NCBI RefSeq assembly: GCF_000423705.1
Contig: NZ_AUIM01000004.1
Location: forward strand, 848,587-912,586
DNA length: 64,000 bases
Reading direction: 5' to 3'
Origin: Stappia stellulata DSM 5886
GTDB lineage: Bacteria; Pseudomonadota; Alphaproteobacteria; Rhizobiales; Stappiaceae
Each line of letters opens with the position of its first letter. The first letter of the stretch is position 1. The notes under the pieces were generated by a model that worked only from the letters and a program-made list of their open reading frames with translations, was not told the DNA's origin and did not search any database. Position numbers and translations under genes: made by a program. Of this stretch, positions 41,410 to 57,477 are shown in pieces.

Positions 41410-42126
41410 TCAGTCGGCAAGCGCCTTGCCTTCGGCCGCCCAAACCGCTCCGCGACGAATAATCTCGCTCACCTGCGGCACCTTGAGATCGTCCAGTGTG
41501 TGGCCGATGGAGCAGTAGAACACCCGCCCCTTGTCCCAGCGCCGCTTCCACACGACGGGGATGACCGTTCCTTCGATCCACCACAGGTGATCGCCTGAGA
41601 AGGTCGTGGTCGCCAGCACTTCGTTGGAGGGATCGACGAGCATGTAGTATTGTTCGGAATGCAGGCGGAAGCTCCGGATGCCCTGAACGACAGGGTCGCC
41701 GGGGCGCGTGATCGTCACGTCGTAGTCGACGAAGTCGTCCGAGGGGACCGCATTGTCCGGCCAGCCCGGCGGATGCGCGACGAACTGCCCGCCAATCAGG
41801 AAGTGATAGGTGGGGCGGTCGCGAAACGCATCGCCCATGTGCCCGTGCCATCCCGCAAGACCGCATCCGTTGGCAATCAGACGCAGGAGGCCATCTTCCT
41901 CGGCCTTCGTCATGTTGCCGAATTCGGGTTGATGCGACGAACGCGCCGACGACCAGATCGGGACGATCAGGTCGACATCGGAAAGGCTTTCGGGATCGGC
42001 CAAGGGCGCGAGCGTGTCGTGAACCACGACTTCGAAACCTTCCTTGCGCAAAAGATCCTCGCACCAGTCGGAAAAGGTGGTGGGTGCATGTCCTTCCCAT
42101 CCGCCTACGAACAAAACCGCTTTCAT
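41410..42126 (-). CDS. ThuA-like domain protein
   Basis: 238 residues, ThuA family (glutamine-amidotransferase-like fold), known from trehalose/sugar utilisation loci in rhizobia. Blocks: VLFVGGWEGHAPTTFSDW, LIVPIWSSARSSH, GCGLAGWHGHMGDAFRD and PVVWKRRWDKGRVFYCSIGH. A biochemical function for the family is mostly inferred; ThuA/ThuB of rhizobia are involved in converting trehalose or related sugars to keto-sugars. It is last in the minus-strand operon and overlaps the preceding dehydrogenase gene by 4 nt. In this context a role in oxidised-sugar handling is plausible. Confidence 0.82.
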   Translation of the reverse strand: MKAVLFVGGWEGHAPTTFSDWCEDLLRKEGFEVVVHDTLAPLADPESLSDVDLIVPIWSSARSSHQPEFGNMTKAEEDGLLRLIANGCGLAGWHGHMGDAFRDRPTYHFLIGGQFVAHPPGWPDNAVPSDDFVDYDVTITRPGDPVVQGIRSFRLHSEQYYMLVDPSNEVLATTTFSGDHLWWIEGTVIPVVWKRRWDKGRVFYCSIGHTLDDLKVPQVSEIIRRGAVWAAEGKALAD

Positions 42127-42992
42127 TGATTCTCCTCACGCATGAAATTCACCATCGCCGCCATGTCGCGGCCTTCATAGCCGCGACGCTCCGCCGCGCG
42201 CAGCCTGTCGAGCGTGACCTTTCCCTGCGGAATGGCGACACCCAATGTGTCGGCAAGGTTCGCTGTGACCTCCATGTCCTTGCGCGCAAGCGCCACTGTG
42301 AAGGTCACGGCATGTGCCTGCTCGTCGAGATAGAGCGGCCGGCGATACTTGAGCATCGGCGCACAGGCGGCCGACGCCTCGATGGCGTCGAAAGCCAGCT
42401 CCGGTGCGATACCGGAGGCCTCGGCAAGTGTCAGCGCTTCGGCAAGCGTCTGGTTGAGACCGTGGATAAGTGAATTGACGGCAAGCTTCATCACAGCGCC
42501 AGCGCCGGCTCGGCCCAGGTGGATGGTCTTGCGGCCGACCGCGTCGAAAAGCGGTCGAAGCTCCGCCCCCTCGCGTTCGCTGCATCCCGCCATGATCATC
42601 AACTGCGCGTCGGCGGCCGCCTGTGTCGCGCCGGAAACAGGCGCATCAACCACCTTCACCCCCTGCGGCGCATTCTGGACCAGCGCCTCGATATGCGCGG
42701 GACTCATTGTTCCCATTTCGACAATCCAGCGCGCGCCCGCGCCGGCAAAAAGCCCGTCGGCCGCTTCATGCACAGCCTGCGAGGCCGCATCGTCGGCGAG
42801 CATCGTCATGACCGCGTCCGTCTCCGATGCCAGCGCGCGCGGCGTGGTCGCCACCCCACAACCGATTTCGGCGGCCAGCGCCTCTGCCTTGTCGCGGGAG
42901 CGGTTCCAGACGCTAACCTCGTGCCCGGCGCGGACCAGATTGCGCACCATGTGCGCGCCCATCCTGCCAAGACCTGCAAATCCGACCCGCAT
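42123..42992 (-). CDS. NAD(P)-dependent oxidoreductase, 3-hydroxyisobutyrate dehydrogenase family
   Basis: 289 residues of the beta-hydroxyacid dehydrogenase family (3-HIBADH, tartronate semialdehyde reductase). Rossmann motif GFAGLGRMGAHMV at the N-terminus, substrate-binding DAPVSGATQAAA and catalytic Lys in GAGAVMKLAVNSL. The start overlaps the ABC ATPase stop (TGATG). In sugar-acid loci such enzymes reduce or oxidise small hydroxy acids; the exact substrate is unknown. Confidence 0.88.
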   Translation of the reverse strand: MRVGFAGLGRMGAHMVRNLVRAGHEVSVWNRSRDKAEALAAEIGCGVATTPRALASETDAVMTMLADDAASQAVHEAADGLFAGAGARWIVEMGTMSPAHIEALVQNAPQGVKVVDAPVSGATQAAADAQLMIMAGCSEREGAELRPLFDAVGRKTIHLGRAGAGAVMKLAVNSLIHGLNQTLAEALTLAEASGIAPELAFDAIEASAACAPMLKYRRPLYLDEQAHAVTFTVALARKDMEVTANLADTLGVAIPQGKVTLDRLRAAERRGYEGRDMAAMVNFMREENQ

Positions 42993-44503
42993 CACGCCAC
43001 CTTCTCTGCTCGGATACCGGAAATCGCCTGAACGAGATTGTCCTCGTTCACCTCCGCTGCAGTGAATTCGCGGATGATCTCGCCGCTGTACATCGCGATG
43101 ACCCGGTCGGAGACATGCAACACTTCCGGCATTTCCGAAGAGATCACGATGACCGCATAGCCGCTGCGCGCCAGTTCGCGGATCAGATTGTGGATCTCCG
43201 CCTTTGACCCGACATCGATGCCGCGCGTCGGCTCGTCGACGATGAGCACGTTGGGGCGCATCGCCAGCCACTTGCCGATCACGATCTTCTGCTGGTTTCC
43301 GCCTGAAAGATTCTTGACCGCCTGCCGCCAGCTCGGCGTCTTGATCTCTAGCCGGTCGCGATATTGCTCGAAAATTGCCAGCTCTGCGCCGTCGGAGACG
43401 AAGGGGCCTGCGGTCAGATCATCCACCTGGGGCAAGGTGATGTTGTCCCGGCAGTTCATGCCGAGCACCAGCCCTTGCTCCTTGCGGCTTTCGGGAACAA
43501 GCGAGATCCCGTTGGCAATCGCATCGACGGGAGAGGACAGGCGCACCTCCTTGCCTTCCAGAAGGACCGTCCCGGAGCTCGGTGTGCGCAGACCGAAAAG
43601 CGTTTCCGCAATCTCCGTGCGGCCGGCACCGACAAGGCCGTAGAAGCCGACAACCTCGCCGGATCGCACGTGAAAGCTGATGTCCCGGTAGAGCGATCCG
43701 CAGCTGAGAGCGCGCACCTCAAGGGCCACACCGCCAAACTCGACATGTTCCTCGTTGCGCGACAGATCGAGGCTGCGCCCGATCATCAACTGCGTCACCT
43801 CGTCCTCGTTTGTATCCGACGTGATCAGCGTGCCGCGATAGGTGCCGTCGCGCAGGACGCTGATCCGGTCGGAGATGGTGAAAATCTCCTCCATACGATG
43901 CGAGATGTAGACGATGCCCACGCCACGAGCCTTGAGATCGCGAATGATCTCGAAGAGCACAACCTTCTCCGCATCCGTCAGCGACGCAGTCGGTTCGTCG
44001 AAGATCACCGCCTTGGCGTTCACGGTGAGCGCACGCGCGATTTCCACCATCTGCTTGTTGGCGATCGACAGGTCCCCCACCCGGGTTTGCGGACCGAACT
44101 TGCAGTTCAGCCGCGTGAGGATCTCGCCGGCTTTGGCGAAAAGCGTCTTCCAGTCGACCCGTCCGAAGCTTTTCCTGGGAAGTTCGCCGAGGTAGATGTT
44201 TTCCGCCGCCGACATTTCCTCCACCAGGCTCAGCTCCTGGTGGATCAGCACCACGCCCTTGGCCTTCGCCTCAAGCGGCGTGCGCATCTCCACTTGCTTT
44301 TCCTCGATGTAGATACGCCCCTCGTTCGGCTGATGCATTCCGGCAAGCGTCTTCATCAGGGTCGACTTGCCGGCCCCGTTTTCGCCGAGAAGCGCGTGAA
44401 CCTCGCCGGGAAGCACCTCGAAGCTGACGCCGTCGAGCGCGCGCACGCCGGGAAAGGTCTTGACGATGCCCTCGAGCCGCAGGGCGGGAACCGGCGCCAT
44501 CAT
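42992..44503 (-). CDS. Ribose-type sugar ABC transporter, ATP-binding protein
   Basis: Double-domain ATPase (RbsA/MglA/XylG type), 503 residues. First half: Walker A GENGAGKST, signature LSIANKQMVEIARAL (degenerate), Walker B VIFDEPTASL. Second half: GLVGAGRTE as the altered P-loop, LSGGNQQKIVIGKWLAM and VLIVDEPTRGIDVG. This asymmetry is normal for the family. ATG 44503 overlaps the permease stop by 4 nt. It energises uptake through the two permeases encoded just upstream. Confidence 0.95.
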   Translation of the reverse strand: MMAPVPALRLEGIVKTFPGVRALDGVSFEVLPGEVHALLGENGAGKSTLMKTLAGMHQPNEGRIYIEEKQVEMRTPLEAKAKGVVLIHQELSLVEEMSAAENIYLGELPRKSFGRVDWKTLFAKAGEILTRLNCKFGPQTRVGDLSIANKQMVEIARALTVNAKAVIFDEPTASLTDAEKVVLFEIIRDLKARGVGIVYISHRMEEIFTISDRISVLRDGTYRGTLITSDTNEDEVTQLMIGRSLDLSRNEEHVEFGGVALEVRALSCGSLYRDISFHVRSGEVVGFYGLVGAGRTEIAETLFGLRTPSSGTVLLEGKEVRLSSPVDAIANGISLVPESRKEQGLVLGMNCRDNITLPQVDDLTAGPFVSDGAELAIFEQYRDRLEIKTPSWRQAVKNLSGGNQQKIVIGKWLAMRPNVLIVDEPTRGIDVGSKAEIHNLIRELARSGYAVIVISSEMPEVLHVSDRVIAMYSGEIIREFTAAEVNEDNLVQAISGIRAEKVA

Positions 44504-45489
44504 GTCTTCAACTCCTGTTTTCCGCGTCGGTTGAGCTGCTTGTCGAGGAACAGCACCGCAATCAGGATCATGCCGAGAATGACAAGGACGTAGAAGGCAG
44601 GAACCTGCATCAGGTTCATGCCGTTGCGCAGGATGCCGATCGCGAGGACGCCGCCGAACGTACCGATGATGTTGCCCGCGCCGCCGGTCAGTTTCGTTCC
44701 GCCGAGCACAGTCGCGGTGATCACCCAAAGCTCGTAATCGCGCCCGAGATTGGGCGTGGCTGCGCCCATCTGCGACGAGAGCGTCACGCCTGCAAGTGCC
44801 GCGAAAAAGCCGACGATCATGAAGTTGATCATCATGTGAGGCCCGACCCGGATGCCGGCGTTCACGGCGGCGTCCCGGTTGCCGCCAACCGCATAGGTGT
44901 TGCGCCCGTGGACGGTGCGCGACAGCAGAAGGTGCGTTGCGACGGTGAAGAGCAGGAAGAGCACGGCGAGCGTCGGCAACGGGCCGACCGAGCTCGCGCC
45001 GAAGTCGGAATAGGCGAAGTTCATCGCGAAGAAGGATTCCTCGCGGGTGTAGATGAACACCAATCCGCGCACGCCGATCATCGCCCCCAGTGTCACGATG
45101 AAGGCGTCGACGCCCGTTTTCCAGACAATGAACCCGTTGAGCGCGCCGAGCACGATGCCGGAGGCCAGCGCCGCCGCCACCGCCGGCAGGATCGCCCAGT
45201 TGCCCCAGGCGGCGAAGACGCCCCAGCTTTGCAGGTCGACGGCAAGGCTTGCCGCCAGCGCAACCACGGCCCCGACGCTGAGGTCGATGTTGCCGTTGAT
45301 CATGACGAGCGTCATGCCCAGCGCGATCAGGCCTATCGTCGACGTCTGGACGAGGATGTTCTGGAAATTTTGCAGGTCGAAGAAATATTCGTTCGAAAAG
45401 CTGAAGAACGCAAAGATGAGGACGATGAAGCCCCAGATCGGATTGCGCGTCAGCCATGTCACGAAAGCGTTTTTCGAGGTGTCCGCCAT
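44500..45489 (-). CDS. Ribose-type sugar ABC transporter, permease 1
   Basis: 329-residue inner-membrane permease (RbsC type). The family signature MINGNIDLSVGAVVALAASLAVDL and the C-terminal GGTKLTGGAGNIIGTFGGVLAIGILRNGMNL are clear, with about eight to ten hydrophobic helices. GAGGA about 7 nt before ATG 45489 supports the start. Two different permeases are present, so the channel is probably a heterodimer, as in some carbohydrate importers of this type. Confidence 0.94.
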   Translation of the reverse strand: MADTSKNAFVTWLTRNPIWGFIVLIFAFFSFSNEYFFDLQNFQNILVQTSTIGLIALGMTLVMINGNIDLSVGAVVALAASLAVDLQSWGVFAAWGNWAILPAVAAALASGIVLGALNGFIVWKTGVDAFIVTLGAMIGVRGLVFIYTREESFFAMNFAYSDFGASSVGPLPTLAVLFLLFTVATHLLLSRTVHGRNTYAVGGNRDAAVNAGIRVGPHMMINFMIVGFFAALAGVTLSSQMGAATPNLGRDYELWVITATVLGGTKLTGGAGNIIGTFGGVLAIGILRNGMNLMQVPAFYVLVILGMILIAVLFLDKQLNRRGKQELKT

Positions 45490-45499
45490 GGTGTCCTCC

Positions 45500-46474
45500 T
45501 CAGGCGATCGGCGACAGCAGCCGGCCGCGTTTCGCCGCGATGTCCAGCCAGACCGCAAGAATGATGACCACCCAGGTCACGAGCCACTGGGCGTAGTAGG
45601 GATAGCCCATGAGCAGCAGTCCATTCTGGATAAACCCGAGAATGAGAACGCCAATCACGGTCTTGAGAATGTTGCCGGAGCCGCCGAGAAGCGACGTTCC
45701 GCCCAGGATCACGCCGGCGAGAACCAATAGTTCGTAGCCCTGTCCCACGTTGTTCTGACTGCCCATCACCCGGCTTCCCAGGATCAAGGCCGCGATCCCC
45801 GTGGTCAAGGCGGAAATCAGATAGGTGGAAAACACCAGGCGCGAGCGGCGAATGCCGGAAAACACCGCCGCCGTCGGGTTGCCGCCGACCGCATAGACCC
45901 GGCGCCCGAACGGAGTGTAGGCCATCACCACATGCATGAAGAGCGCAAGGCCGAGGAACATGACGATCGGCGTCGCGATGCCGGCAACGTAGCCGCGCCC
46001 GAAGATCGCAAACCAGGTGGTCTCCTGATCGAGAATATCGACGTTCTTGCCGCCGGTGTAGATCAGGGTCAGCCCCTGGATCGCCGAGAGCATCCCCAAC
46101 GTGACAATCAACGAATTCAGTCGCGCCACACCGACCAGAAACCCGTTGACCGCCCCAAGCACAAGCGTCGCACCGAGCATCACGACAATCGCCAGTTCCG
46201 GACCGATCTTGTCGTGGAGATCAACGACGAGAACGGTGGAAAACGACAGCATGGACCCGACCGACAGGTCCAGGTTTCCGCCGATGACCACGACGGTCAC
46301 GCCGACGGCCATGACACCGATGATGGCGGCCTGCCGGATCACCGTGGCAAGGTTTTCAGGTGTCATGAAACGATCGCTGAAAACCGCGAAGCCGATCAAG
46401 AATATTGCAAAGGCGATCAGGATGCCTTGTCGAGCAAGCAACTCGCCGATGGTTTTCAGGCGTGTGTCCGCCAT
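45500..46474 (-). CDS. Ribose-type sugar ABC transporter, permease 2
   Basis: 324 residues, paralogous to permease 1: VIGGNLDLSVGSMLSFSTVLVVDL, FGRRVYAVGGNPTAAVFSGI and LGGTSLLGGSGNILKTVIGVLILGFIQNGLLLMG. The gene ends 10 bp before permease 1 begins. Starts with MADTRLKTIGELLARQG and a first helix at about 18-35. Confidence 0.94.
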   Translation of the reverse strand: MADTRLKTIGELLARQGILIAFAIFLIGFAVFSDRFMTPENLATVIRQAAIIGVMAVGVTVVVIGGNLDLSVGSMLSFSTVLVVDLHDKIGPELAIVVMLGATLVLGAVNGFLVGVARLNSLIVTLGMLSAIQGLTLIYTGGKNVDILDQETTWFAIFGRGYVAGIATPIVMFLGLALFMHVVMAYTPFGRRVYAVGGNPTAAVFSGIRRSRLVFSTYLISALTTGIAALILGSRVMGSQNNVGQGYELLVLAGVILGGTSLLGGSGNILKTVIGVLILGFIQNGLLLMGYPYYAQWLVTWVVIILAVWLDIAAKRGRLLSPIA

Positions 46475-46546: not shown

Positions 46547-47344
46547 TCAGACCAGTGTCATTCCGCCGTCAATCATGACGATCTGCCCCGTCATGTAGTC
46601 GCTGTCGCGTGACGCGAGAAAAGTCGTTGTCCCTGTGATGTCGGCCGGCGTTGCAACCCGCCCCTTGAGAATCTCGGAAGAAAACTCCTCCATCGCCTGG
46701 CCCGGTCGTTCGGAGGCGCCGATCGCCATCAGATCCCGGTCGACCTCCTCCCACATTTCCGTCGCCACCACCCCGGGCGCAAACCCCGTCACGGTGATGT
46801 CATGCCGCGCAAGATCGCGGGCGCCGGACTGCGTGAGCGAGACCACCGCCCACTTCGATGCACAGTAGGGCGCGACATTGTCGAACCCCTGACGGCTGGC
46901 GATAGAGGCGGTGTTGACGATCTTTCCGCCTCCCCCCTGCGCAATCATCTGGCGCGCCGCCTCCTGCATGCCGATGAGAACGCCAAGCCCGTTCACGTCC
47001 ATGATGAACCGCCAATTTTCCTCCGTCACATCCAGGAAGTTCATCGGCCGATTGACGCCGGCATTGTTGAATTTCACATCGATCCGGCCGAAGGCATCCG
47101 CGGCACGCGCGATCATGTCGCGCACCTCGTTGCGTTGCGTCACATCGACCTTGGCGGACATGACCTTGCCGCCACCCGTCGACGCGCGTTCGGCATTTTC
47201 CGCTGCAACATGCGCCGCTTTCTCGCCGTTGATATCGGCGAAACAGACATCCGCGCCCTCCTCCAGCAGCGCCTCCGCAATGGCACGGCCGATTCCCTGC
47301 GCGGCGCCGGTCACAAGACAGGCGCGCCCCGAGACACGTCCCAT
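46547..47344 (-). CDS. Short-chain dehydrogenase/reductase inserted in the ABC operon
   Basis: 265 residues, classical SDR. NAD(P) motif TGAAQGIGRAIAEAL, NNAGVN, catalytic Ser in NTASIASRQ and YCASK (Tyr/Lys). An acidic residue after the second strand (FADING) favours NAD. It resembles sorbitol/polyol-type SDRs and is similar to the SDR at 50419 on the other side of the divergence (shared DVT..R, NAGVN, W..IMD/NVNG.G, GMQEAARQMIAQG, DYMTGQ.VMIDGGM), so the two look like paralogues. Sitting between the binding-protein gene and permeases ties it to the transported substrate. Confidence 0.9.
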   Translation of the reverse strand: MGRVSGRACLVTGAAQGIGRAIAEALLEEGADVCFADINGEKAAHVAAENAERASTGGGKVMSAKVDVTQRNEVRDMIARAADAFGRIDVKFNNAGVNRPMNFLDVTEENWRFIMDVNGLGVLIGMQEAARQMIAQGGGGKIVNTASIASRQGFDNVAPYCASKWAVVSLTQSGARDLARHDITVTGFAPGVVATEMWEEVDRDLMAIGASERPGQAMEEFSSEILKGRVATPADITGTTTFLASRDSDYMTGQIVMIDGGMTLV

Positions 47345-47422: not shown

Positions 47423-48367
47423 TCAAAAGACGGGCTTGTCGAACTCGTCCATGTTCGCCTTGGTGATCTTCGGCGTGTCGAAATAGTTGAGATCCGGCAC
47501 GTCCTTGCCTTCCAGAACGTCGAGCGCGGTCTTCAATGCGGCCTCCGCATCGTCCACCGGCGACTGGTAGATCGATCCGTAGTACTCGCCACGTGCCATC
47601 GCCTCGTATCCGACGGCGAAGTTGGTTGCCCCGACAAAGGCAATATCACCGGCGCGTCCGGCCGCCTTGGCCGCGTTGAGCGCGCCGACGCCCATGTTGT
47701 CGTCACCGGCATAGACACCATCGATAGTGTCGTACTTCACCAGGAAGCTTTCCATGACACGCTGGGACTTTTCACGGTTCCAGTCGCCCGGCTGCGTTTC
47801 CATCAGTTCGACATCGGGGCACACCTCCGGAAGGCGGTCCTCGAAGCCCTTGGCGCGTTCGATCGCCGTCGTGTAACCGGGCTGCCCGGAGATCTGGACA
47901 ATCTGGCCCTTGCCGTCCAGCGCCTCGCACATCAGTTCGGCGGAGCGCGCGCCCTGCGTGATGTTGTCCGGACCGGAGAAGGAAGCGATGAAGTCGAAGC
48001 CTTCCTCGGCGATATTGGAATTCGTGACGATCACCGGGATGCCCGCCTGGTGGGCCTTGCGCACGGCCGGAACCACCGCCTTGCCGTTGGTCGGCCAGAT
48101 GATGATGGCGTCCACGTTCTGCTGGATGAGATCCTGGATCTGGGCAATCTGGCGGGCGACGTCGCCGCCGGCATCGAGCACGACCGCCTCGACATTCTCG
48201 TTTTCTTCGGCGGCTGCGATGAAGGCCTTCTCATAGGTGGTCTGGTAGCTGTCGACACCGACGTTGTTCTGCGTGATGCCAATCTTGTAGGTCTCCGCCT
48301 GTGCAACACCGGAAGCGCCGATGAGGGCGGTGGTCGCGACGAGCGCGGCTGCGAGCTTGAGCGTCAT
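47423..48367 (-). CDS. Sugar ABC transporter, periplasmic binding protein (RbsB type)
   Basis: Captures the sugar-like ligand in the periplasm. 314 residues: signal peptide MTLKLAAALVATTALIGASGVAQA, then the type I periplasmic-binding fold (YKIGITQNNVGVDSYQTTYEKAFIAAAEE, DVARQIAQIQDLIQQNVDAIIIWPTN, IPVIVTNSNIAEE, GVYAGDDNMGVGALNA). ATG 48367 is picked because GGGAGGAAA lies upstream; the frame is open further but lacks a signal there. First gene of the operon; its promoter region holds the large inverted repeat at 48496-48539. The ligand is not predictable from sequence. Confidence 0.93.
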   Translation of the reverse strand: MTLKLAAALVATTALIGASGVAQAETYKIGITQNNVGVDSYQTTYEKAFIAAAEENENVEAVVLDAGGDVARQIAQIQDLIQQNVDAIIIWPTNGKAVVPAVRKAHQAGIPVIVTNSNIAEEGFDFIASFSGPDNITQGARSAELMCEALDGKGQIVQISGQPGYTTAIERAKGFEDRLPEVCPDVELMETQPGDWNREKSQRVMESFLVKYDTIDGVYAGDDNMGVGALNAAKAAGRAGDIAFVGATNFAVGYEAMARGEYYGSIYQSPVDDAEAALKTALDVLEGKDVPDLNYFDTPKITKANMDEFDKPVF

Positions 48368-48587
48368 GATGGTGTTTCCTCCCATGGAAAATCTTTCGTG
48401 CTGATTGCGCCTCATCCTCCAGGGCCAAGGGTTCGCACCCCTTTGCAATCAGATACCAAGATCATTCTCCCGACGCCGCTTCCATACCGCAGAAGTTTTA
48501 TCCGTTTTGGACAGTTGATTATCCAAAACGGATAAAACGACGGTAACGTCACAATCCCGGAAATGACCATTTTGAAAGAACACCGAC
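48368..48587. promoter_or_regulatory. Divergent promoter region of the catabolic regulon
   Basis: 220 bp between the binding-protein gene and the regulator gene. It contains the 17-bp inverted repeat at 48496-48539, the main candidate operator. No confident -35/-10 pair is seen on either strand. Confidence 0.6.
48496..48539. promoter_or_regulatory. Perfect 17-bp inverted repeat, candidate operator
   Basis: Arms GTTTTATCCGTTTTGGA (48496-48512) and TCCAAAACGGATAAAAC (48523-48539) match perfectly, 10 nt apart. Each arm also contains TCC-N5-GGA, a smaller dyad. The site is centred about 70 bp upstream of the regulator start and about 150 bp upstream of the binding-protein start. AT-rich symmetry in GC-rich DNA makes it a likely regulator target. 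Confidence 0.8.
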
Positions 48588-50399
48588 ATGAAACGTCATT
48601 CTCGCTCCGGATTCAACACGACAACGGGACCCAAAGTGACCGCGCTGCAAGCCACGGACATCCAAAGCGGATATTCAGCTGACGCCCTAGCGGCGGCGCA
48701 GTCCGGCGACAACCGAGCCGAAATGCTCGATGTGATCGGCTTTCTCGAAGCCTTCACGGGCGAGGTGGAAACCAGCATAGAGCCGAGCGCGCCGAACCCC
48801 TACTTCAACATGGCAATGCACCTGATGCGCAGTCATCTGGAAGGACGGGTCGTGACGGCGTCGGCACTGGTCGCCGCCTCCGGCGTTCCCTATGCGACTG
48901 CCATGCGCAAGTTGGCCGAGATGCAAAAGGGCGGCCTGATCGAGCAGCGTCCGCGCACGAGAAGCGGGCGGAGCTTTTCGCTGCATCCGAGCGCCGACCT
49001 GATCCAGAAATGGAGCCAGCTCTCCGACCGTCTTCAGCGCATTGCGCAACAGACCTTCGGCGGTGGCCCGGCCACCACCGAGGAAGCCGACTACTACTAC
49101 GGCGGATCCTACATGGCCGGTCATTCGATCCAGCCGCCGCAGGTCCTGCCCGAGCCGCTGGCTCTGCCCGGGGGCTTGCGGATCCTGGTTCACGGCGATC
49201 CAACCTTCATGGTCATGGAGAACCTGAAGCGCCAGTTCGAGCAACTGGTTGGCAGCAAGATCAACCAGCGCGCCTTTTCCATCGACCGGCTCCACGAAGA
49301 GACCCTGCGCAATTCCGAAAGAGCGACCAGCCGCTACGACCTGATCGCCGTCGACCTTCCCTGGATCGGCGAATTCGTGAAAAAGGGCATCCTGCTTCCC
49401 CTCGATGACGTCCTGGACGTGGACCGGCTCGATCCCGGCGACTTCCATACTGCCGGCTGGCGCGCCGCGCATTGGAACGGGCGTCCCTATGGCGTCCCCA
49501 GCCAGACCACTCCGGAACTGTTCTTCTATCGCCGCGATCTCTTCGCCGAGGCAGGTCTCGAGCCCCCAACAACGACCGACGCCGTGCTGGAAGCGGCACG
49601 CGCGCTGCACGATCCCACGCAAGGACGCTACGGCATCGCCTGGAACGCCGCACGCGGCACGGCCCTCGGTCATACCTTCATCATGACCTGCGCGGACTTC
49701 GGCCAGCCGATCGTCAACATGAAGCGGATCGCCGGGGGCTACGATGCCGATCATCTGGACCGGACCGACCTCGAGCCGACCATCGACACGCCCCGCGCCC
49801 TCGAGGCGGCGGAATATCTCAAGGCGCTGCTGGACTTCTCGCCGCCCGATATCCTCTCCATGTCCTGGTACGAGCGCGTGCGCCCCTATGCATCGGGCCG
49901 CGTTGCCATGGCCTATGGCTACACGCTGCTTGCCCCCTACTTCGAGCAGGATCCCAGTTCGCCCGCGTGCGGGCAGACCGGCTATCTGCCTCATCCGCCG
50001 GGACCGAAAGGCTCCCCGGTCGCGCCGGTCGGCGGCTATGTCCTCGCCCTGCCCGCAAACCTTCCCGAGGAACGGCGGGCCGCGGCAGGAGAAGCCCTGA
50101 TCGCCTTCACGTCGCCGGAAGCGCAGAAGCTCTATGTCGTCAACGGCAGCCGCACAGCACCGCGCTATTCGGTCGGCGCGGACCCGGAGGTGCGGCGGCT
50201 CTCGACCATCTTCGAAGCCGTGGACGCCATGTCCTGGCGCGACGAGCTTCAGTTCTGGCCACGCCCGCCGATCCCCGAAATCTCGAAGATCATCAGCATC
50301 TGCGGACAGGAGATGCACGACATGCTGCGGGGCGTCATCCCCCCGCGCGATGCCCTGGAGCGCGCCCAGGCAAGGGCAGCCCAGGTCATGAGACAATAA
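48588..50399 (+). CDS. Fusion of winged-helix DNA-binding domain and family-1 solute-binding protein
   Basis: 603 residues with no signal peptide or membrane segment. Residues about 71-135 form a MarR-like winged helix: HLMRSHLEGRVVTASALVAA, SGVPYATAMRKLAEMQKGGLIEQ (recognition helix) and a wing RPRTRSGRSFSL. From about 196 to 590 the sequence is a full family-1 extracellular binding protein: RYDLIAVDLPWIGEFVKKGILLPLDD, PYGVPSQTTPELFFYRRDLFAEAGLEPP, ASGRVAMAYGYTLLAP, PVGGYVLALP. So the binding fold is probably a cytosolic ligand sensor. It is transcribed away from the ABC operon and towards the dehydrogenase genes, next to the inverted repeat. Activator or repressor is not known. Confidence 0.85.
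   Translation: MKRHSRSGFNTTTGPKVTALQATDIQSGYSADALAAAQSGDNRAEMLDVIGFLEAFTGEVETSIEPSAPNPYFNMAMHLMRSHLEGRVVTASALVAASGVPYATAMRKLAEMQKGGLIEQRPRTRSGRSFSLHPSADLIQKWSQLSDRLQRIAQQTFGGGPATTEEADYYYGGSYMAGHSIQPPQVLPEPLALPGGLRILVHGDPTFMVMENLKRQFEQLVGSKINQRAFSIDRLHEETLRNSERATSRYDLIAVDLPWIGEFVKKGILLPLDDVLDVDRLDPGDFHTAGWRAAHWNGRPYGVPSQTTPELFFYRRDLFAEAGLEPPTTTDAVLEAARALHDPTQGRYGIAWNAARGTALGHTFIMTCADFGQPIVNMKRIAGGYDADHLDRTDLEPTIDTPRALEAAEYLKALLDFSPPDILSMSWYERVRPYASGRVAMAYGYTLLAPYFEQDPSSPACGQTGYLPHPPGPKGSPVAPVGGYVLALPANLPEERRAAAGEALIAFTSPEAQKLYVVNGSRTAPRYSVGADPEVRRLSTIFEAVDAMSWRDELQFWPRPPIPEISKIISICGQEMHDMLRGVIPPRDALERAQARAAQVMRQ
48661..48672. promoter_or_regulatory. Extra half-site inside the regulator gene
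   Basis: TCCAAAGCGGAT differs by one base from TCCAAAACGGAT in the upstream operator. It lies at codons 25-29 of the regulator gene, about 120 bp from the operator centre, and could allow looping or autoregulation. Confidence 0.4.
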
Positions 50400-50418: not shown

Positions 50419-51225
50419 ATGGACCCCAATCGTCTCAAGGGAAAAAACATCATGATCACCGGCGCCGCCCAGGGCATGGGCGCGGCCAATGCCGAGTACT
50501 TCGCTGCACAGGGCGCGAATGTCTGCATCGGTGACATCAATGTCGACGGGGTCCGCGAGGTCGCGGAGCGTATCAATGCCGCCGGCAACGGCAAGGCCGT
50601 GGCCGTAAAGCTCGACGTGACCAAGCGCGAGGACAACACCGCAGCCGTTGCAAAGACGGTCGAGGCCTTCGGCTCGATCAATGTCGCGCTTCTCAACGCA
50701 GGGGTGAACAAGCCCAGGATGTTCCTCGATATCGACGAGGAAAACTGGGACATGATCATGAACATCAATGCCAAGGGCCAGCTTTTCGGCATGCAGGAAG
50801 CCGCCAGGCAGATGATCGCCCAGGGCAAGGAGCACGGGCCCTACAAGATCGTCAACGTCGGCAGCATCGTGTCGCGCACGGCCTTTCTCGACGTGATCCC
50901 CTACTCCTGCTCCAAATACTGCTCTCTTGCCCTGATCATCGGCGGCGCAAAGGCTCTGGCGGAGCACAACATCACGGTCAACGGATACGGACCGGGCGTT
51001 GTGCGGACGGAGCTTTGGGAACAACTCGACAAGGATCTGGTCGAGATCGGCATGTTCGAGGAGGAAGGTCAGTCGATGGACCACCTCGCCAAGACCATGA
51101 TCACGATGAAGCGCTACTCGTATCCCGATGACGTGAAGGGAACGGCAGCCTTCCTGTGCTCCCACGAGAGCGACTACATGACCGGCCAGCTGATCATGAT
51201 CGACGGCGGCATGATCATGCAGTGA
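50419..51225 (+). CDS. Short-chain dehydrogenase/reductase
   Basis: 268 residues, classical SDR: TGAAQGMGAANAEYF, NAGVNKP, VNVGSIVSR (catalytic Ser) and YSCSK (Tyr/Lys). The acidic residue in IGDINVD favours NAD. GGGAGG 8 nt before the ATG gives a strong ribosome site. Its closest relative in the window is the SDR of the left-hand operon. The gene starts 19 bp after the regulator stop, so it is probably co-transcribed with it. A polyol or hydroxy-sugar dehydrogenase is the natural reading. Confidence 0.9.
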   Translation: MDPNRLKGKNIMITGAAQGMGAANAEYFAAQGANVCIGDINVDGVREVAERINAAGNGKAVAVKLDVTKREDNTAAVAKTVEAFGSINVALLNAGVNKPRMFLDIDEENWDMIMNINAKGQLFGMQEAARQMIAQGKEHGPYKIVNVGSIVSRTAFLDVIPYSCSKYCSLALIIGGAKALAEHNITVNGYGPGVVRTELWEQLDKDLVEIGMFEEEGQSMDHLAKTMITMKRYSYPDDVKGTAAFLCSHESDYMTGQLIMIDGGMIMQ

Positions 51226-51344
51226 CGCGAGGCGCGCGACCGGGCGGCACGTTTCGCCCACGCGCCTGCACGACTTTCTTTTCTCAAGGACAGACCGGCC
51301 GGTCCACGCGTCATCGCGTGCGCCGCCAAGGGAGGTTTACAACC

Positions 51345-52643
51345 ATGACCAATGCCCTCAATCCCCGCATCCTGCAGCCCGGCGACATCGATCCCAACTG
51401 GCGTTGGGACCGGCATATTCCCGCGCTCGGCCACACGGCCGTCGACTTCGAGCGCCGCGTCGACCACGACCGGCTGCGCCGCTACCGCCTGTCGCGCACC
51501 AAGGATGCGCTGAAGAAGTCGGGCTGCGGGTCGCTGCTGACCTTCGACGTCAACAACATCCGCTACATCACCGGCACCAAGATCGGCGAGTGGGAACGCG
51601 ACAAGATGTGCCGCTTCGCGCTTCTCGCGGGCGACGAGGAGCCCTACGTCTGGGACTTCGGCTCGGCGGCCGTGCACCACAAGGAATACTGCGACTGGCT
51701 CGATCCGGAGCGCTGCCGCGCCGGCGTGGTGGGCATGCGCGGCACCATCCCGCCGAGCTTCGGGCTGATGAAGCGCTACGCGGAAGAGATCGCCTCGCTG
51801 ATCAAGAAGGCCGGCATGGCCGACATGCCGGTGGGCGTCGACTACGCCGAAACCGCCATGTTCTTCGCTCTCCAGGAGGCCGGCCTCAACGTCGTGGACG
51901 GCCAGCAGGTCATGCTGAGCGCGCGCGAGATCAAGAACATCGACGAGATCCAGCTGCTCAACCAGGCGGCCAGCATGGTGGACGGCGTCTACGACATGAT
52001 CTGGCACGAGTTGCGCCCCGGCATTCGCGAAAACGACATCGTCGCCAGGGCCAACAAGATGCTCTACGAAATGGGGTCCGACGATGTGGAGGCGATCAAC
52101 GCGATTGCCGGCGAGCGCTGCAATCCGCACCCGCACAACTTCACGGACCGTCTGTTCCGCCCCGGCGACCAGGCCTTCTTCGACATTCTGCAGAGCTATC
52201 AGGGCTACCGCACCTGCTACTACCGCACGTTCAACATCGGCCGGGCAACGCCCGCGCAGAACGACGCTTATGTGCGTTGCCGCGAATGGCTGGACAATGC
52301 CATCGCCCTGATCAAGCCGGGCGTCACGACGGATACGGTCGCCAAGGCCTTTCCCAAGGCGGAGGAATTTGGCTTCCCGGACGAGCTCTCGGCCTTCGGC
52401 CTGCAGTTCGGCCACGGTCTCGGCCTTGCCCTGCACGAGCGTCCGATCATCAGCCGCGCGGTTTCGCTCGACAATCCGATGGAGATCCAGACCGGCATGG
52501 TCTTCGCACTGGAAACCTATTGTCCGGCCGCCGACGGATACTCCGCAGCCCGCATCGAGGAAGAGGTCGTCGTCACCGACAAGGGCTGCACGGTGATCAG
52601 CCTGTTCCCGGCCGAGGATCTTCCGATCGCCAACCGCTACTGA
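51345..52643 (+). CDS. M24 (creatinase/prolidase-fold) protein lacking a metal ligand
   Basis: 432 residues with the pita-bread fold: N-terminal creatinase-like domain (DALKKSGCGSLLTFDVNNIRYITGTKIGEWERD) and C-terminal M24 domain. Expected ligands: D280 (FFDIL) is kept, but the second aspartate of the GYxSD..RT motif is C291 (GYRTCYYRTF); H357 (GHGLGLALHE), E390 (LETYC) and E407 (EEEVV) are kept. A classical two-metal peptidase is therefore unlikely. The N-terminal part resembles the DMSP-lyase-like/creatinase branch of non-peptidase M24 enzymes. GGGAGG lies 11 nt before the ATG. It sits among dehydrogenase genes, so a small-molecule lyase or hydrolase role is inferred. Confidence 0.82.
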   Translation: MTNALNPRILQPGDIDPNWRWDRHIPALGHTAVDFERRVDHDRLRRYRLSRTKDALKKSGCGSLLTFDVNNIRYITGTKIGEWERDKMCRFALLAGDEEPYVWDFGSAAVHHKEYCDWLDPERCRAGVVGMRGTIPPSFGLMKRYAEEIASLIKKAGMADMPVGVDYAETAMFFALQEAGLNVVDGQQVMLSAREIKNIDEIQLLNQAASMVDGVYDMIWHELRPGIRENDIVARANKMLYEMGSDDVEAINAIAGERCNPHPHNFTDRLFRPGDQAFFDILQSYQGYRTCYYRTFNIGRATPAQNDAYVRCREWLDNAIALIKPGVTTDTVAKAFPKAEEFGFPDELSAFGLQFGHGLGLALHERPIISRAVSLDNPMEIQTGMVFALETYCPAADGYSAARIEEEVVVTDKGCTVISLFPAEDLPIANRY

Positions 52644-52694: not shown

Positions 52695-53690
52695 ATGAGT
52701 GCCGCACGAAAGAAGAAGACGAATACGGACGACTATCTGCGCATGTACCGGCAGATGGTGCGCATTCGCGCCTTCGAGGACAGGGCAAACCAGCTCTATC
52801 TCTCCGCCAAGATGCCGGGTCTGACCCACATGTACTCCGGCCAGGAGGCCGTGGCGGTGGGCATTTGCGAGGCTCTGACAGAGACCGACAAGATCACCTC
52901 GACCCATCGCGGCCACGGCCACTGCGTTGCCAAGGGCGCGAACTTCAAGGAGATGTTCTGCGAGCTCCTGGGCAAGGAGGAAGGCTACTGCCGGGGCAAG
53001 GGCGGCTCGATGCATATCGCCGACCAAAGCAACGGCAACCTCGGTGCCAACGCCATTGTCGGCGGCTCGATGGGTATCGCCACCGGCGCGGCCCTAAGCG
53101 CCAAGCGTCTGGGAACGGGCGACGTCACGGTCTGCTTCTTCGGCGACGGGGCAACCGCGCAGGGGCTTTGGTACGAGGTCATGAACATGGCGGCGCTCTG
53201 GGGCCTGCCGGTGATCTACGCCTGCGAGAACAACGGCTACTCGGAATACACCAAGACCGAGGAGATCGCAGCCGGCTCGCTCACCGCGCGGGCCGAAGCC
53301 TTCGGCATCGAGGCGCATGTCGTCGACGGACAGGACGTGCTTGCCGTCAACGACCTGACCCAAAAGCTGGTCGCCCGGGCACGCAAGGGCGAAGGCCCCT
53401 TCTTCATCCAGCTCGACACCTACCGCTACCACGGCCACCACGTCGGCGACATCAACCGCGAATACTACCGGGCCAAGGACGAGGAAGCGCTATGGAAGGC
53501 CGAGCGCGACCCGATCGTCAATTTCGGCAAGTGGCTGACGGATCAGGGCATTACGACCTCCGACGACCTCGACAAGCTCAAGAGCGAGGTTGAAGCCGAC
53601 GCCGAAGCTGCCGTCGCCTACGCGGAAGCCGCCCGCTATCCCGATACGCGCGAAGTGGACATGCATGTCTACGCGCCCAATGCTGCTTGA
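52695..53690 (+). CDS. 2-oxoacid dehydrogenase E1 component, alpha subunit (AcoA/PdhA-like)
   Basis: Thiamine-diphosphate-dependent decarboxylase half of a dehydrogenase complex. 331 residues. Motifs: YSGQEAVAVGICEAL, STHRGHGHCVAKG, GKGGSMHIAD, the ThDP fold GDG..NN as FGDGATAQG...CENNGYSEYT, and DTYRYHGHHVGD phosphorylation-type loop. The pattern is closest to acetoin dehydrogenase AcoA. GGAGGAGG before the ATG is a strong ribosome site. E1 beta follows 11 bp later. The oxo-substrate (pyruvate-like, acetoin or a sugar-derived 2-oxoacid) is not determined by sequence. Confidence 0.92.
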   Translation: MSAARKKKTNTDDYLRMYRQMVRIRAFEDRANQLYLSAKMPGLTHMYSGQEAVAVGICEALTETDKITSTHRGHGHCVAKGANFKEMFCELLGKEEGYCRGKGGSMHIADQSNGNLGANAIVGGSMGIATGAALSAKRLGTGDVTVCFFGDGATAQGLWYEVMNMAALWGLPVIYACENNGYSEYTKTEEIAAGSLTARAEAFGIEAHVVDGQDVLAVNDLTQKLVARARKGEGPFFIQLDTYRYHGHHVGDINREYYRAKDEEALWKAERDPIVNFGKWLTDQGITTSDDLDKLKSEVEADAEAAVAYAEAARYPDTREVDMHVYAPNAA

Positions 53691-53701: not shown

Positions 53702-54697
53702 ATGAGAGAGATCACCCTGTCGAAGGCGGTGAACGAAGCCATCGCCGAGGAAATGCGCCGCGACGAAACCGTGTTCCTGCTGGGCGAGGATGTCGCGGAA
53801 GCCGGCACGCCCTTCAAGGTCCTCTCGGGGCTCGTGGAGGAATTCGGCACCGAGCGCATCATCGACACGCCGATTTCCGAACCCGGCTTTACCGGGATTG
53901 CCGTCGGTGCCGCGCTGACGGGCTCGCGGCCGATCGTCGACCTGATGTTCGGGGACTTCCTGTTCCTGATCATGGACCAGCTCTGCAATCAGGCCGCCAA
54001 GGCCTATTACATGTCCGGCGGCAAGTTGAACGTGCCGATGGTGCTGCGCACCAACCTCGGCGCGACGCGCCGCTCCGCCGCCCAGCACTCGCAGTCGCTG
54101 CATGCGCTCGTCGCGCATATCCCGGGTCTCAAGGTCGCCCTTCCCTCCTCCGCCTATGAGGCAAAGGGCCTGATGAAGACCGCGATCCGCGACAACAACC
54201 CGGTCGTCATCTTCGAAGACAAGCTGATGTACCAGGACAAGGCCCCGGTGCCGGAGGAGGAATATCTGATCCCCTTCGGTGTGGCGAACGTGAAGCGCGA
54301 GGGAAAGGACATCACCCTGATCGGCACCTCCTCCATGGTGCAGGTGGCGGAGGCCGCCGCCGAGGCGCTGGCAAAGGAAGGTATTGAGGCGGAGGTGATC
54401 GATCCGCGCACCATCGTGCCTCTCGACGAGGAGACCCTGCTTAAGTCGGTCAAGAAAACCTCGCGCGCCATCGTCATCGACGAGGGCCACCAGAGCTACG
54501 GCGTGACGGGGGAGATCGCGAGCCGGCTGAACGAGAAAGCCTTCTATCACCTCGACGCGCCGGTGGTGCGCATGGGGGCGATGGACGTGCCGGTGCCGTT
54601 CTCGCCCGCGCTTGAGGATCTGACCGTTCCCACGGTCGATGCCGTGACGGCCATGGCCCGCAGGCTGGTGGCCGGGGAGATGATCCATGCCGCATGA
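53702..54697 (+). CDS. 2-oxoacid dehydrogenase E1 component, beta subunit (AcoB/PdhB-like)
   Basis: 331 residues. Provides the catalytic Glu and the pyrimidine pocket for ThDP: VFLLGEDVAEAGTPFKV, IIDTPISEPGFTGIAVGAAL, DLMFGDFLFLIMDQLCNQAAK and the C-terminal DPRTIVPLDEETLLKSVKKTSRAIVIDEG. ATG 53702 follows GGAGG. Its last 11 nt overlap the lipoyl-protein gene, so all three are coupled. Confidence 0.93.
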   Translation: MREITLSKAVNEAIAEEMRRDETVFLLGEDVAEAGTPFKVLSGLVEEFGTERIIDTPISEPGFTGIAVGAALTGSRPIVDLMFGDFLFLIMDQLCNQAAKAYYMSGGKLNVPMVLRTNLGATRRSAAQHSQSLHALVAHIPGLKVALPSSAYEAKGLMKTAIRDNNPVVIFEDKLMYQDKAPVPEEEYLIPFGVANVKREGKDITLIGTSSMVQVAEAAAEALAKEGIEAEVIDPRTIVPLDEETLLKSVKKTSRAIVIDEGHQSYGVTGEIASRLNEKAFYHLDAPVVRMGAMDVPVPFSPALEDLTVPTVDAVTAMARRLVAGEMIHAA

Positions 54698-56018
54698 CGT
54701 CATCATGCCGGCTCTCGGCATGGCGCAGGACTCAGGCCTTATCGTCTCCTGGCTGAAAAGCCCGGGCGACGCGGTCAAGGCCGGGGATGCGCTGATGGAG
54801 GTGGAGACGGACAAGGCGACGATGGAGGTCGAGGCACAGGCCGACGGCTTTCTCACCAGGGTCACGGCCGCCGCCGGCGACACTATCCCGGTCGGAAACG
54901 TGGTCGCGGTGATCGCCGAGACGGCCGAAGCTGCCGACGAGGATCCCCCGGCGCCCGTTGCGGAATCGAAAGCGCCTGCGGAGGCCGAAAGCGAGCCTGC
55001 GCCGGCAGAACTCCCGGACGGCAAATCCGTGATCATGCCGGCGCTCGGCATGGCGCAGGACACCGGCCTGCTGGTCTCATGGGCCAAAGCACCGGGCGAT
55101 CAGGTCGCGGCCGACGATGTGCTCTTCGAGGTGGAGACCGACAAGAGCACGATGGAAGTCCCCGCCGGCCACGACGGATATGTCGCCGCTCTTCTGGCGG
55201 AGGCCGGCGACACTGTGCCGGTCGGCGAGAGCGTGGCGATCATTTCCGCCGACAAGCCAGCCGATCCGCAGCGCCGAAGCGCGGGGCCAAGCGCCAAACC
55301 CACGGCAGCGCCATCGGACCCCGCTGCAAAGACGGAAGAGGCAATTGCCACAAAGGCGACCGCTCCCGCCCGGCCCTCGCCGACAAAGGCGGCAGCGGTC
55401 GAGGGCGTCATCCTCGCCTCGCCCAAGACGCGGCGGCTGGCGCTGGAGGAAGGTCTCGATCTTGCCCGTCTCGCGGAGGCGGGACATCCGCAGCCCTTCC
55501 ATGTCCGCGACCTCGAAACGCTGCGGACAATGCCGGCGCGTGGCACGGGATCGGCGGCACCTGTCGAAGCGGCACCGGCCCGGCACCTGTCGGCGCGCGT
55601 GTCTTCGGACGGGCTTGCCGGATTTCTCGCATGGGCGCGGGCGGAAACCCAGGGTTCGGTCGATCAATCCACATTGCTGGCTGGCTTCGCGCGCGCAAGC
55701 CTGCGGTCCCTGGACGGCAACCCGGACCCTGTGATCGAGGTGGAAACGCTGCATGGCTCGACACGCTTCCCCGAGGCAGCCGAAGACGATGCGACGAACG
55801 GCAAACCGGACCTGATCCTTCGCGATCTGCGTGCCTCCCCGCTCAACGGTTTGCGCATGGGCGCGGAAGCCGCCCCCGTCCTGACCCTCGTGCAGGAGGA
55901 TGAAACACTCACGCTGACGCTGGAATGCGGCGCCGGTCAACTCGACGCACGCGCCGCGATCTCGCTCGTCTCCGGTTTTGCCGGGCGGCTTGAGGATCCC
56001 TTGCGCCACCTGCTTTGA
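54687..56018 (+). CDS. Lipoyl carrier protein with two lipoyl domains, E1/E3-binding domain and degenerate E2 core
   Basis: 443 residues. Two lipoyl domains (about 2-78 and 113-188) with attachment lysines K43 and K153 in EVETDKATMEV and EVETDKSTMEV. An E1/E3-binding domain (about 242-280: ILASPKTRRLALEEGLDLARLAEAG) follows a Pro/Ala linker. The last about 140 residues look like the E2 acyltransferase fold in outline (LSARVSSDGLAGFLAWARAE ... VSGFAGRLEDPLRHLL), but where the catalytic DHRVxDG should be it reads ECGAGQLDARAA, with no His. So it carries acyl groups but cannot transfer them to CoA itself; the E2 core encoded at 57488 probably does. Confidence 0.85.
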   Translation: MPHDVIMPALGMAQDSGLIVSWLKSPGDAVKAGDALMEVETDKATMEVEAQADGFLTRVTAAAGDTIPVGNVVAVIAETAEAADEDPPAPVAESKAPAEAESEPAPAELPDGKSVIMPALGMAQDTGLLVSWAKAPGDQVAADDVLFEVETDKSTMEVPAGHDGYVAALLAEAGDTVPVGESVAIISADKPADPQRRSAGPSAKPTAAPSDPAAKTEEAIATKATAPARPSPTKAAAVEGVILASPKTRRLALEEGLDLARLAEAGHPQPFHVRDLETLRTMPARGTGSAAPVEAAPARHLSARVSSDGLAGFLAWARAETQGSVDQSTLLAGFARASLRSLDGNPDPVIEVETLHGSTRFPEAAEDDATNGKPDLILRDLRASPLNGLRMGAEAAPVLTLVQEDETLTLTLECGAGQLDARAAISLVSGFAGRLEDPLRHLL

Positions 56019-56046: not shown

Positions 56047-57477
56047 ATGGACCACACCGATCTCTACATCAACGGCGACTGGCGTCCCGGAGCCGAGAAC
56101 GTCCGCTTCGACGTCATCAATCCGGCGACGGAAGAAGTTCTGGCCTCCGTCGCTTCCGCAGAAATCGCCGACGCGGATGCCGCCCTCGATGCGGCGCAAG
56201 GCGCTTTCGCGGAATGGGCCGGTTACACGCCGCGCCAGCGGTCGGAAGTGCTGCGCAAGGCGTGGGAACTGATGACCGCGCGCATCGAGGATTTCGCGCG
56301 CCTGATCACGCTGGAAAACGGCAAGGCGCGCGGCGATGCCATCGGCGAGGCCACCTATGCAGCGGAATTCTTCCGCTGGTTCGCCGAGGAAGCCGTGCGC
56401 GCCGACGGGATGATCACCCATGCGCCGGCCTCGGGTGCACGCATTCTCGTCCAGCACAAGCCGGCCGGGATCGCGGTTCTCGTCACACCGTGGAACTATC
56501 CGGCCGCCATGGGCACCCGCAAGATCGCGCCAGCGCTTGCCGCCGGCTGTCCGGTGATCATCAAGCCGGCGTCGGAAACCCCGCTGACCATGCTCGCGCT
56601 GATGCCGCTTCTGGAGGAAGCCGGCGTTCCCAAGGGGCTGGTCAACGTGCTGCCGTCGCGGCGCACCGGCGCATTGGTCGACCACATGCTGCACGACCCG
56701 CGCGTGCGGGTGATCTCCTTCACCGGCTCCACGCAGGTCGGGCGCAAGCTTCTGCATTCGGCCGCCGACCAGGTCCTGAAACCGGCGATGGAGCTTGGCG
56801 GCAATGCCCCGCTGATCGTCTTCGAGGACGCCGACCTGGATGTCGCGGTGGAAGGCGCGATGCTCGCCAAGATGCGCAATCTCGGCGAGGCCTGCACCGC
56901 CGCCAACCGCTTCTACGTCCATGAAAGCGTGGCGCAGGCCTTTACCGAGAAATATGTCGCGGCAATGCGCAAGCTGAAGCTCGGCAATGGCATCGAGGAC
57001 GGCGTGGACGTCGGTCCGCTGGTCAATGCGGAGACCCGCGACAAGGTGGCGGAATTCGTCGAGGATGCCGTCAAAAAGGGCGCGAAGATCGAGCTTGGCG
57101 GCAAGGCGCCCGACGGCAGGGGGTTCTACTACCCGCCCACGGTGCTGTCCGGCGTGCCGGAAACCGCCGACTGCGTGCATGACGAGATCTTCGGCCCCGT
57201 CGCGGCCATCCAGACCTTCACCGACCAGGAAGACGTTATTCGACGCGCCAATGCGACCGAATACGGCCTCGTCGCCTATGTCTTTTCCGAAAACATGAAA
57301 CGCGCATTGCAGGTCTGCGAGCGGCTGGAATACGGCATGGTCGGCCTGAACCGGGGTCTCGTCTCGGATCCGGCCGCCCCCTTCGGCGGCGTGAAGCAAT
57401 CCGGCCTCGGCCGCGAGGGCGGACACGAGGGCATGCTGGAATTCATGGAAACCCAGTATATTTCCGCAAGCTGGTAG
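56047..57477 (+). CDS. NAD(P)-dependent aldehyde dehydrogenase
   Basis: 476 residues, oxidises an aldehyde to the acid. Catalytic C283 (GEACTAANRF) and general base E249 (MELGGNAP) are present, with N150 (TPWNYPAAM) and K173 (VIIKPASETP). Like succinate-semialdehyde and other sugar-acid semialdehyde dehydrogenases. GGAG 7 nt before ATG 56047 supports the start. It sits between the two halves of the E2 system, so the aldehyde is probably an intermediate of the same route; the identity is unknown. Confidence 0.92.
   Translation: MDHTDLYINGDWRPGAENVRFDVINPATEEVLASVASAEIADADAALDAAQGAFAEWAGYTPRQRSEVLRKAWELMTARIEDFARLITLENGKARGDAIGEATYAAEFFRWFAEEAVRADGMITHAPASGARILVQHKPAGIAVLVTPWNYPAAMGTRKIAPALAAGCPVIIKPASETPLTMLALMPLLEEAGVPKGLVNVLPSRRTGALVDHMLHDPRVRVISFTGSTQVGRKLLHSAADQVLKPAMELGGNAPLIVFEDADLDVAVEGAMLAKMRNLGEACTAANRFYVHESVAQAFTEKYVAAMRKLKLGNGIEDGVDVGPLVNAETRDKVAEFVEDAVKKGAKIELGGKAPDGRGFYYPPTVLSGVPETADCVHDEIFGPVAAIQTFTDQEDVIRRANATEYGLVAYVFSENMKRALQVCERLEYGMVGLNRGLVSDPAAPFGGVKQSGLGREGGHEGMLEFMETQYISASW

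Follow-up and report, generated by a model that had tools for sequence, protein, structure and literature searches.

The genome of Stappia stellulata DSM 5886 encodes a protein in which a putative DNA-binding head precedes a domain of the kind found in ABC solute-binding proteins. This combination raises the question of whether the protein captures solutes outside the cell or regulates transcription inside it and, if the latter, which genes it controls. The protein (603 amino acids) is encoded by the open reading frame at positions 48588-50399 (forward strand) of the window, by which we mean the whole 64,000-nucleotide stretch of contig NZ_AUIM01000004.1 that was analyzed. An initial annotation, made from the letters of the sequence, had read it as a cytosolic regulator.

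Architecture of the protein

48588-50399, + strand: regulator gene, MarR-like winged helix-turn-helix (wHTH) plus family-1 solute-binding domain, 603 amino acids (open reading frame list, Pfam, orthologues, model)
48705-49058, + strand: DNA-binding module, residues 40-157 (structure models, Foldseek, alignment); elements in the model are a long helix (40-63), helices 71-85 and 91-97, a recognition helix (102-114), wing strands (118-122 and 130-134) and a helix (136-157)
49059-49172, + strand: linker, residues 158-195 (model; residues 158-182 have pLDDT below 50)
49173-50393, + strand: family-1 solute-binding domain, residues 196-602 (Pfam, model, sequence and fold matches)

The MarR-like winged helix and the complete family-1 fold that the initial annotation had proposed can both be found in the protein. 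SBP_bac_1 (PF01547) matches residues 240-514 with 101.3 bits against a Pfam cut-off of 26, SBP_bac_8 matches the same part, and the wHTH modelled alone (123 residues, 38-160) has a mean pLDDT of 89.6, with the fold order helix-helix-helix-strand-strand-helix preceded by a long first helix. The suggested check by domain search and structure model thus bore out SBP_bac_1 and, by model, the wHTH, but the head fell short in family score and fold statistics: MarR_2 (residues 85-128) scores 21.9 bits, under its Pfam cut-off of 27, and none of the 50 Foldseek matches listed for the wHTH model reaches E ≤ 0.001, the best being HcaR at 0.0011. MarR-family proteins make up most of these 50, in part by title and in part by our own assignment where the title does not name a family; two we take to be of ArsR type. 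When 35 family members (the window protein and 34 of the 80 genome-contig loci described below) were scanned singly at E 0.01, SBP_bac_1 was found in all 35 and MarR_2 in 11. Assignment of the head as a wHTH is therefore based on structure rather than on a family score.

The full-length AlphaFold2 model, built from 35 sequences, has a mean pLDDT of 69.6 and a pTM of 0.54, with a confident wHTH part and a solute-binding part (about residues 196-602) of moderate confidence. For the latter, the top three Foldseek matches are 5iai, 4rya and 1eu8, with TM scores to the target of 0.48-0.51, which fits the moderate confidence of the model. The best solved relative, by both sequence and fold, is 5iai (Arad_9887 of Agrobacterium radiobacter), and homology points to sugars or polyols as the probable ligands of the domain.

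By Kyte-Doolittle hydropathy, no signal-peptide-like stretch was found in residues 1-60, where the best 12-residue mean is 1.46, compared with 2.31 in the neighbouring RbsB-type protein; the earlier claim that the protein lacks a signal peptide and is cytosolic is thus supported at the sequence level. According to sequence and model, DNA-binding and ligand-sensing domains are combined in one soluble protein, which is the organization of a one-component regulator. At 603 amino acids and with a solute-binding domain, the protein is not a single MarR domain.

Distribution and gene neighbourhood

The regulator is present as one copy in its genome, where a single further match, of low significance (2.8e-5), is confined to residues 301-534. 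At E 1e-30, it was detected in 23/87 genomes of the same family (own genome counted). Comparisons were made with 80 of the 81 confirmed genome-contig loci, which share 61-95% identity and include, by name, many Rhodobacterales, Stappia and Roseibium; the family thus occurs in numerous bacteria of sea and soil. Among plasmid records, 32 matched at E 1e-40, with approximately 35-70% identity in those listed (30). Profile searches gave matches in 8/385 genomes of the class at E 1e-60 and 6/398 genomes of the phylum at E 1e-45 (own genome counted in each), one of the latter (G591) coming from another class. A chance fusion or assembly error is ruled out by the 23 genomes, 80 of 81 loci and 32 plasmid records.

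The entire locus, from the ThuA gene to lpdA, is carried by an 82-kb plasmid of Phaeobacter gallaeciensis (pP73_d, NZ_CP010640.1; L105) that is typed as conjugative, and such carriage fits the patchy spread of the locus (23/87 genomes). One genome (G757; L141 and L142) contains three regulator paralogues, two of them less than 10 kb apart, with different gene sets beside them.

An alignment of 18 diverse members has 30 positions of the window protein identical in all, and the wHTH region is conserved across the aligned members, with T104 and R107 of the recognition helix identical in 18/18. In the binding domain, W259, P304, R315, D317, W557 and R559 are likewise identical in 18/18, down to approximately 32% identity. 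These residues bear on the idea that the solute-binding part has ceased to bind ligand and serves as a body for dimerisation or for interaction with other proteins, such as the ABC ATPase. Consistent with that idea, no ligand could be named, and model confidence is low in the linker and in parts of the domain. We nevertheless consider it very unlikely, as the entire fold has been retained with an SBP_bac_1 score far over the cut-off, many residues of this part are invariant among 35 orthologues, and the six residues listed above, some of which may line a pocket, do not vary.

The genes on either side of the regulator in the window are as follows:

41410-42126, - strand: ThuA-domain protein (domain scan)
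42123-42998, - strand: 3-hydroxyisobutyrate-dehydrogenase-like oxidoreductase (domain scans)
42992-44521, - strand: RbsA/AraG-type ABC ATPase (domain scans)
44500-45489, - strand: ABC permease (name from Phaeobacter orthologue)
45500-46474, - strand: ABC permease (name from Phaeobacter orthologue)
46547-47344, - strand: short-chain dehydrogenase SDR1 (domain scans)
47423-48367, - strand: exported binding protein of RbsB type (Peripla_BP_4), encoded at the head of the divergent transport operon (domain scan, hydropathy)
50419-51225, + strand: short-chain dehydrogenase SDR2, directly downstream of the regulator (domain scan)
51339-52643, + strand: M24-family enzyme, distantly like the DMSP lyase DddP (106.6 bits against a family cut-off of 600)
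52695-53690, + strand: thiamine-dependent 2-oxoacid (PDH-like) dehydrogenase E1 alpha (NCBIfam, under that family's cut-off)
53702-54697, + strand: E1 beta (NCBIfam)
54687-56018, + strand: lipoyl protein with two lipoyl domains (domain scan)
56047-57477, + strand: aldehyde dehydrogenase (name from Phaeobacter orthologue)
57488-58396, + strand: separate E2 acyltransferase catalytic domain (domain scans)

Relatives of 16 window proteins were sought in the 80 genome-contig loci, and only loci with enough sequence on the relevant side were counted. The position that the initial annotation had given the gene, at the divergence of a transport operon and a dehydrogenase operon, was confirmed: in 73/73 testable loci the regulator gene is adjacent to, and divergent from, the RbsB-type gene, and SDR2 is next downstream in 78/78. 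The M24 enzyme follows SDR2 in 72/72 testable loci, and E1 alpha lies downstream of the regulator in 58/68. Without the filter for contig sequence, the gap between regulator and SDR2 is 23-100 nt in 80/80 loci and that between regulator and RbsB is 243-462 nt in 77/80, the other three (L080, L090 and L097) having little or no contig before the regulator. Because the binding protein encoded next door belongs to Peripla_BP_4, which has a different fold from that of SBP_bac_1-type sensors, the sensor of the regulator is not a copy of it.

The conserved neighbourhood also bears on the database name of the protein. Of the 30 listed plasmid records, 25 call it an "extracellular solute-binding protein", a name that together with the SBP_bac_1 match would suggest an exported binding protein with a chance N-terminal extension. 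The adjacent transporter, however, already has its own RbsB-type binding protein, and conserved sites can be found at the promoter of the gene (see below). We rejected this identity, which we regard as scarcely credible, on the grounds that a signal-peptide-like stretch is absent by hydropathy and that the wHTH is conserved in aligned relatives. On present evidence, some entries bearing this name are misnamed regulators.

Several features of the neighbouring enzymes were observed in passing. The E2 of the dehydrogenase complex is split over two genes, one with the two lipoyl domains (54687-56018) and one with the catalytic domain (57488-58396), and in Phaeobacter, too, the annotation lists the lipoyl protein apart from the E2 subunit. 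For the M24 enzyme, 73/73 orthologues from the 80 genome-contig loci have the sequence FFDILQSYQGYRTC; Cys presumably takes the place of the Asp that commonly serves as second metal ligand in M24 peptidases, and the enzyme, distantly DddP-like, is probably not an ordinary peptidase. When 10 neighbour proteins were compared with NCBIfam at E 1e-20, no equivalog reached its cut-off among the best 25 matches of each, where only the broad E1-beta subfamily model passed. Naming of the ligand or pathway from these neighbours was thus without success among the matches listed.

In distant members, the transporter varies and the core enzymes are kept. L127, with a regulator of 47% identity, has a different RbsB transporter and M24, E1 and aldehyde dehydrogenase proteins at 80-84%. 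In three genomes of 1.4 Mb (L121-L123), the regulators have 31-32% identity, SDR2 64-66% and the M24 enzyme 67-69%. The regulator, SDR2 and M24 genes are retained there beside RbsB-type transporters. Other distant regulators adjoin intradiol dioxygenases, Gfo/Idh/MocA oxidoreductases or sugar-isomerase-like genes. On a plasmid of Agrobacterium tumefaciens (CP039918.1; L111), the regulator gene lies between two ABC gene sets, one with a separate substrate-binding protein and the other of the UgpC/family-1 sugar type, an arrangement that is useful for the question of the origin of the sensor domain.

Predicted operator sites

Upstream regions were taken from 103 orthologue loci; after removal of L090 and L097, which have a cut 5' end, 101 regions remained, of which 94 are distinct. 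An in-frame ATG or GTG can be found at the equivalent start position in 87/94 distinct regions, and 73 of these 87 have a Shine-Dalgarno-like motif of at least four bases. By the same scan, the motif is absent at ATG 48588 of the window; relatives L003 and L005 (95% identical) do have one at their starts. The later starts GTG 48636 and ATG 48726 are less likely after this survey.

The repeat at 48496-48539 that the initial annotation had reported upstream of the gene is real, but it consists of two predicted operators rather than one, with a third inside the gene (all given without strand):

48495-48538: perfect 17-nt inverted repeat spanning O1 and O2 (arms 48495-48511 and 48522-48538, 17/17 complementary)
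48499-48513: predicted operator O1, TATCCGTTTTGGACA (repeat and motif comparison)
48520-48534: predicted operator O2, TATCCAAAACGGATA, 21 bp from O1 (repeat, motif comparison, genome scan)
48659-48673: predicted operator O3, CATCCAAAGCGGATA, within regulator codons 24-29 (motif comparison)

The inverted repeat is thus made up of two 15-bp palindromes with centres 21 bp apart, and the predicted operator averaged across regions is TATCCAWWWTGGATA. With up to two mismatches to TATCCN5GGATA, a site can be found upstream of the regulator in 82/94 distinct regions and is missing from 12/94, compared with a mean of 9.7 and a maximum of 17 site-bearing regions in 20 Markov shuffles, and with 3/94 in a coding control. 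Pairs exactly 21 bp apart occur in 46/94 regions (48 have none at this mismatch limit), the next commonest spacing being found in 6. A number of other orthologues have a third site within the same 5' region of the gene. Genome-wide, 27 sites have at most one mismatch, three of which are at the regulator locus, and O2 is the only perfect match, a distribution that suggests a local regulon. The backward control pattern is commoner (38 against 27), and isolated one-mismatch sites elsewhere in the genome are therefore noise.

Measured from their centres, O2 is 61 nt away from ATG 48588 and O1 is 139 nt away from the start codon of RbsB (48367). A promoter scan of 48370-48700 found no sigma-70-like promoter, so the position of the sites relative to -35 and -10 elements, and hence repression, is not fixed by these data. 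The same protein and sites could instead act mainly in activation, the ligand-bound form bringing RNA polymerase to the promoters for transport and catabolism; O1 and O2 do lie upstream of both start codons, and the scan showed no canonical promoter that overlaps with them. Against this, the third site is inside the gene, a usual place for a repressor site, and MarR-type proteins are mostly repressors. We consider activation as the main mode rather unlikely.

Distant loci were scanned with a position matrix derived from relatives with at least 55% identity and compared with 20 shuffles. The best site exceeded the shuffle maximum in 8/16 loci (L106, L107, L109, L111, L124, L125, L127 and L140) and did not rise above the shuffles in the other 8/16 (L108, L110, L121, L122, L123, L126, L128 and L141). 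A pair with the 21-bp spacing adjoins the regulator gene of L140, a locus from a different class of the phylum. L124 has sites in the SDR2-RbsB intergenic region and upstream of its M24 gene; the regulator gene adjoins neither of these places and is found further along the run of genes headed by RbsB. The best-scoring site of L125 falls inside a coding region. In L121-L123, whose regulators are approximately 32% identical, TATTCAN3TGAATA can be found between regulator and RbsB and again just before the SDR2-M24 operon; it is a variant by one base per half and scores within the shuffle range there. L122 and L123 have a further variant site between divergent Gfo/Idh- and TIM-barrel-like genes (named by eye).

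These comparisons support the addition of a conserved predicted operator at the promoter of the regulator and, in some relatives, at sister pathway promoters as well. An N-terminal wHTH, no signal peptide and TATYCAN3TGRATA at the promoter could together serve as a recognition test for the family.

Proposed regulation and relation to known systems

The architecture, the lack of a signal-peptide-like segment, the conserved neighbourhood, the sites with their spacing, and the recurrence of sites at other pathway promoters in some relatives support a one-component, ligand-responsive transcription regulator that would act at TATCCAWWWTGGATA sites, the conserved sites being indirect support for operator binding, and we consider it likely that the protein is of this kind and a probable repressor of both operons. 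The MarR-like winged helix would form a dimer through its flanking helices and bind the 15-bp palindromes. The transport operon and the divergent regulator-SDR-M24-dehydrogenase operon are separated by a region with two of the sites, 21 bp or two helical turns apart, and two dimers, possibly forming a tetramer, would thus sit on the same face of the DNA; the third site follows shortly after the start of the regulator gene. In the cytosol, the MalE-type domain may close around a sugar- or polyol-like compound that has been imported, or around an early (first) product of its breakdown, and closure would alter the affinity for DNA. Most likely, both operons would be repressed without ligand and released when it binds, a reading favoured by two features, the intragenic site and the tandem pair that lies between the two start codons.

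We give about even weight to the broader proposal of an undescribed regulator family, in which a MalE-type intracellular sensor on a MarR-like head would control an SDR/M24/PDH-like pathway, from roseobacters to 1.4-Mb genomes, through dimer pairs on tandem palindromes and a possible loop to an intragenic operator, its sensor fold being unrelated to the binding protein of the adjacent transporter. Judged from its predicted regulon, the regulator would serve a catabolic pathway, the substrate of which can be sought via the ligand of the sensor. As solute-binding proteins have many known ligands, such regulators could also be natural biosensor scaffolds.

By model, the protein resembles the MarR family in its winged helix and flanking helices, and MarR operators are palindromes at divergent promoters, as are the sites predicted here. 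MarR proteins have approximately 140-150 amino acids and bind their ligand within the DNA-binding dimer or close to it; the present regulator differs in the separate 400-amino acid sensor that follows its DNA-binding part. Reuse of a periplasmic-binding-protein fold as a cytosolic sensor for sugar operons is known from LacI/GalR proteins, which join the RbsB-type fold to a LacI HTH. The regulator has this reuse in common with them; neither the LacI HTH nor an RbsB-type sensor (Peripla_BP_1, 3 or 4) was found in it by Pfam at E up to 5, a limit at which HMMER filters discard most matches above about 0.1, although an RbsB-type binding protein belongs to the neighbouring transporter. LysR-family proteins resemble it in combining a wHTH with a binding fold, in their case a type-II periplasmic-binding fold with a small LysR_substrate domain; HTH_1 and LysR_substrate were not detected in the regulator at E up to 5, with the same loss of matches to the HMMER filters. 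Family-1 ABC solute-binding proteins such as 5iai are exported partners of ABC permeases. They have the sequence and fold of the sensor domain in common with the regulator, which differs from them in its DNA-binding head and in having no signal-peptide-like segment.

A known parallel in layout is SgrR, for which the source is reportedly work by Vanderpool and Gottesman from 2007, cited in a later paper on SgrR/DsvR. As described in that later paper, SgrR/DsvR regulators combine an HTH with SBP_bac_5 in one protein, and SgrR represses itself by negative autoregulation (PMC13060122). They resemble the present regulator in having an N-terminal HTH and a C-terminal solute-binding domain and differ in the sensor, which is SBP_bac_5 rather than SBP_bac_1; SgrR governs a small RNA stress response, whereas the present protein is encoded, with palindromic sites nearby, where genes for uptake and for catabolism diverge. 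Membership of the SgrR family was rejected, since SBP_bac_5 is absent and the only solute-binding models matching the regulator at E up to 5 are SBP_bac_1 and SBP_bac_8. A survey reports that sensor domains of receptors, transcriptional regulators among them, account for many of the domains recognised by SBP Pfam signatures (PMC9602780). The description of the architecture as non-standard, made in the initial annotation, thus holds in part: no description of a natural wHTH-SBP_bac_1 regulator was found in the open-licence literature, covered mostly by abstracts, but solute-binding sensors have a precedent in SgrR/DsvR. In light of this precedent and of the survey, the family-1 regulator is a variant and no new principle. 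It would add another large binding-protein family to those turned into intracellular sensors, besides LacI with its RbsB-type fold and SgrR with SBP_bac_5.
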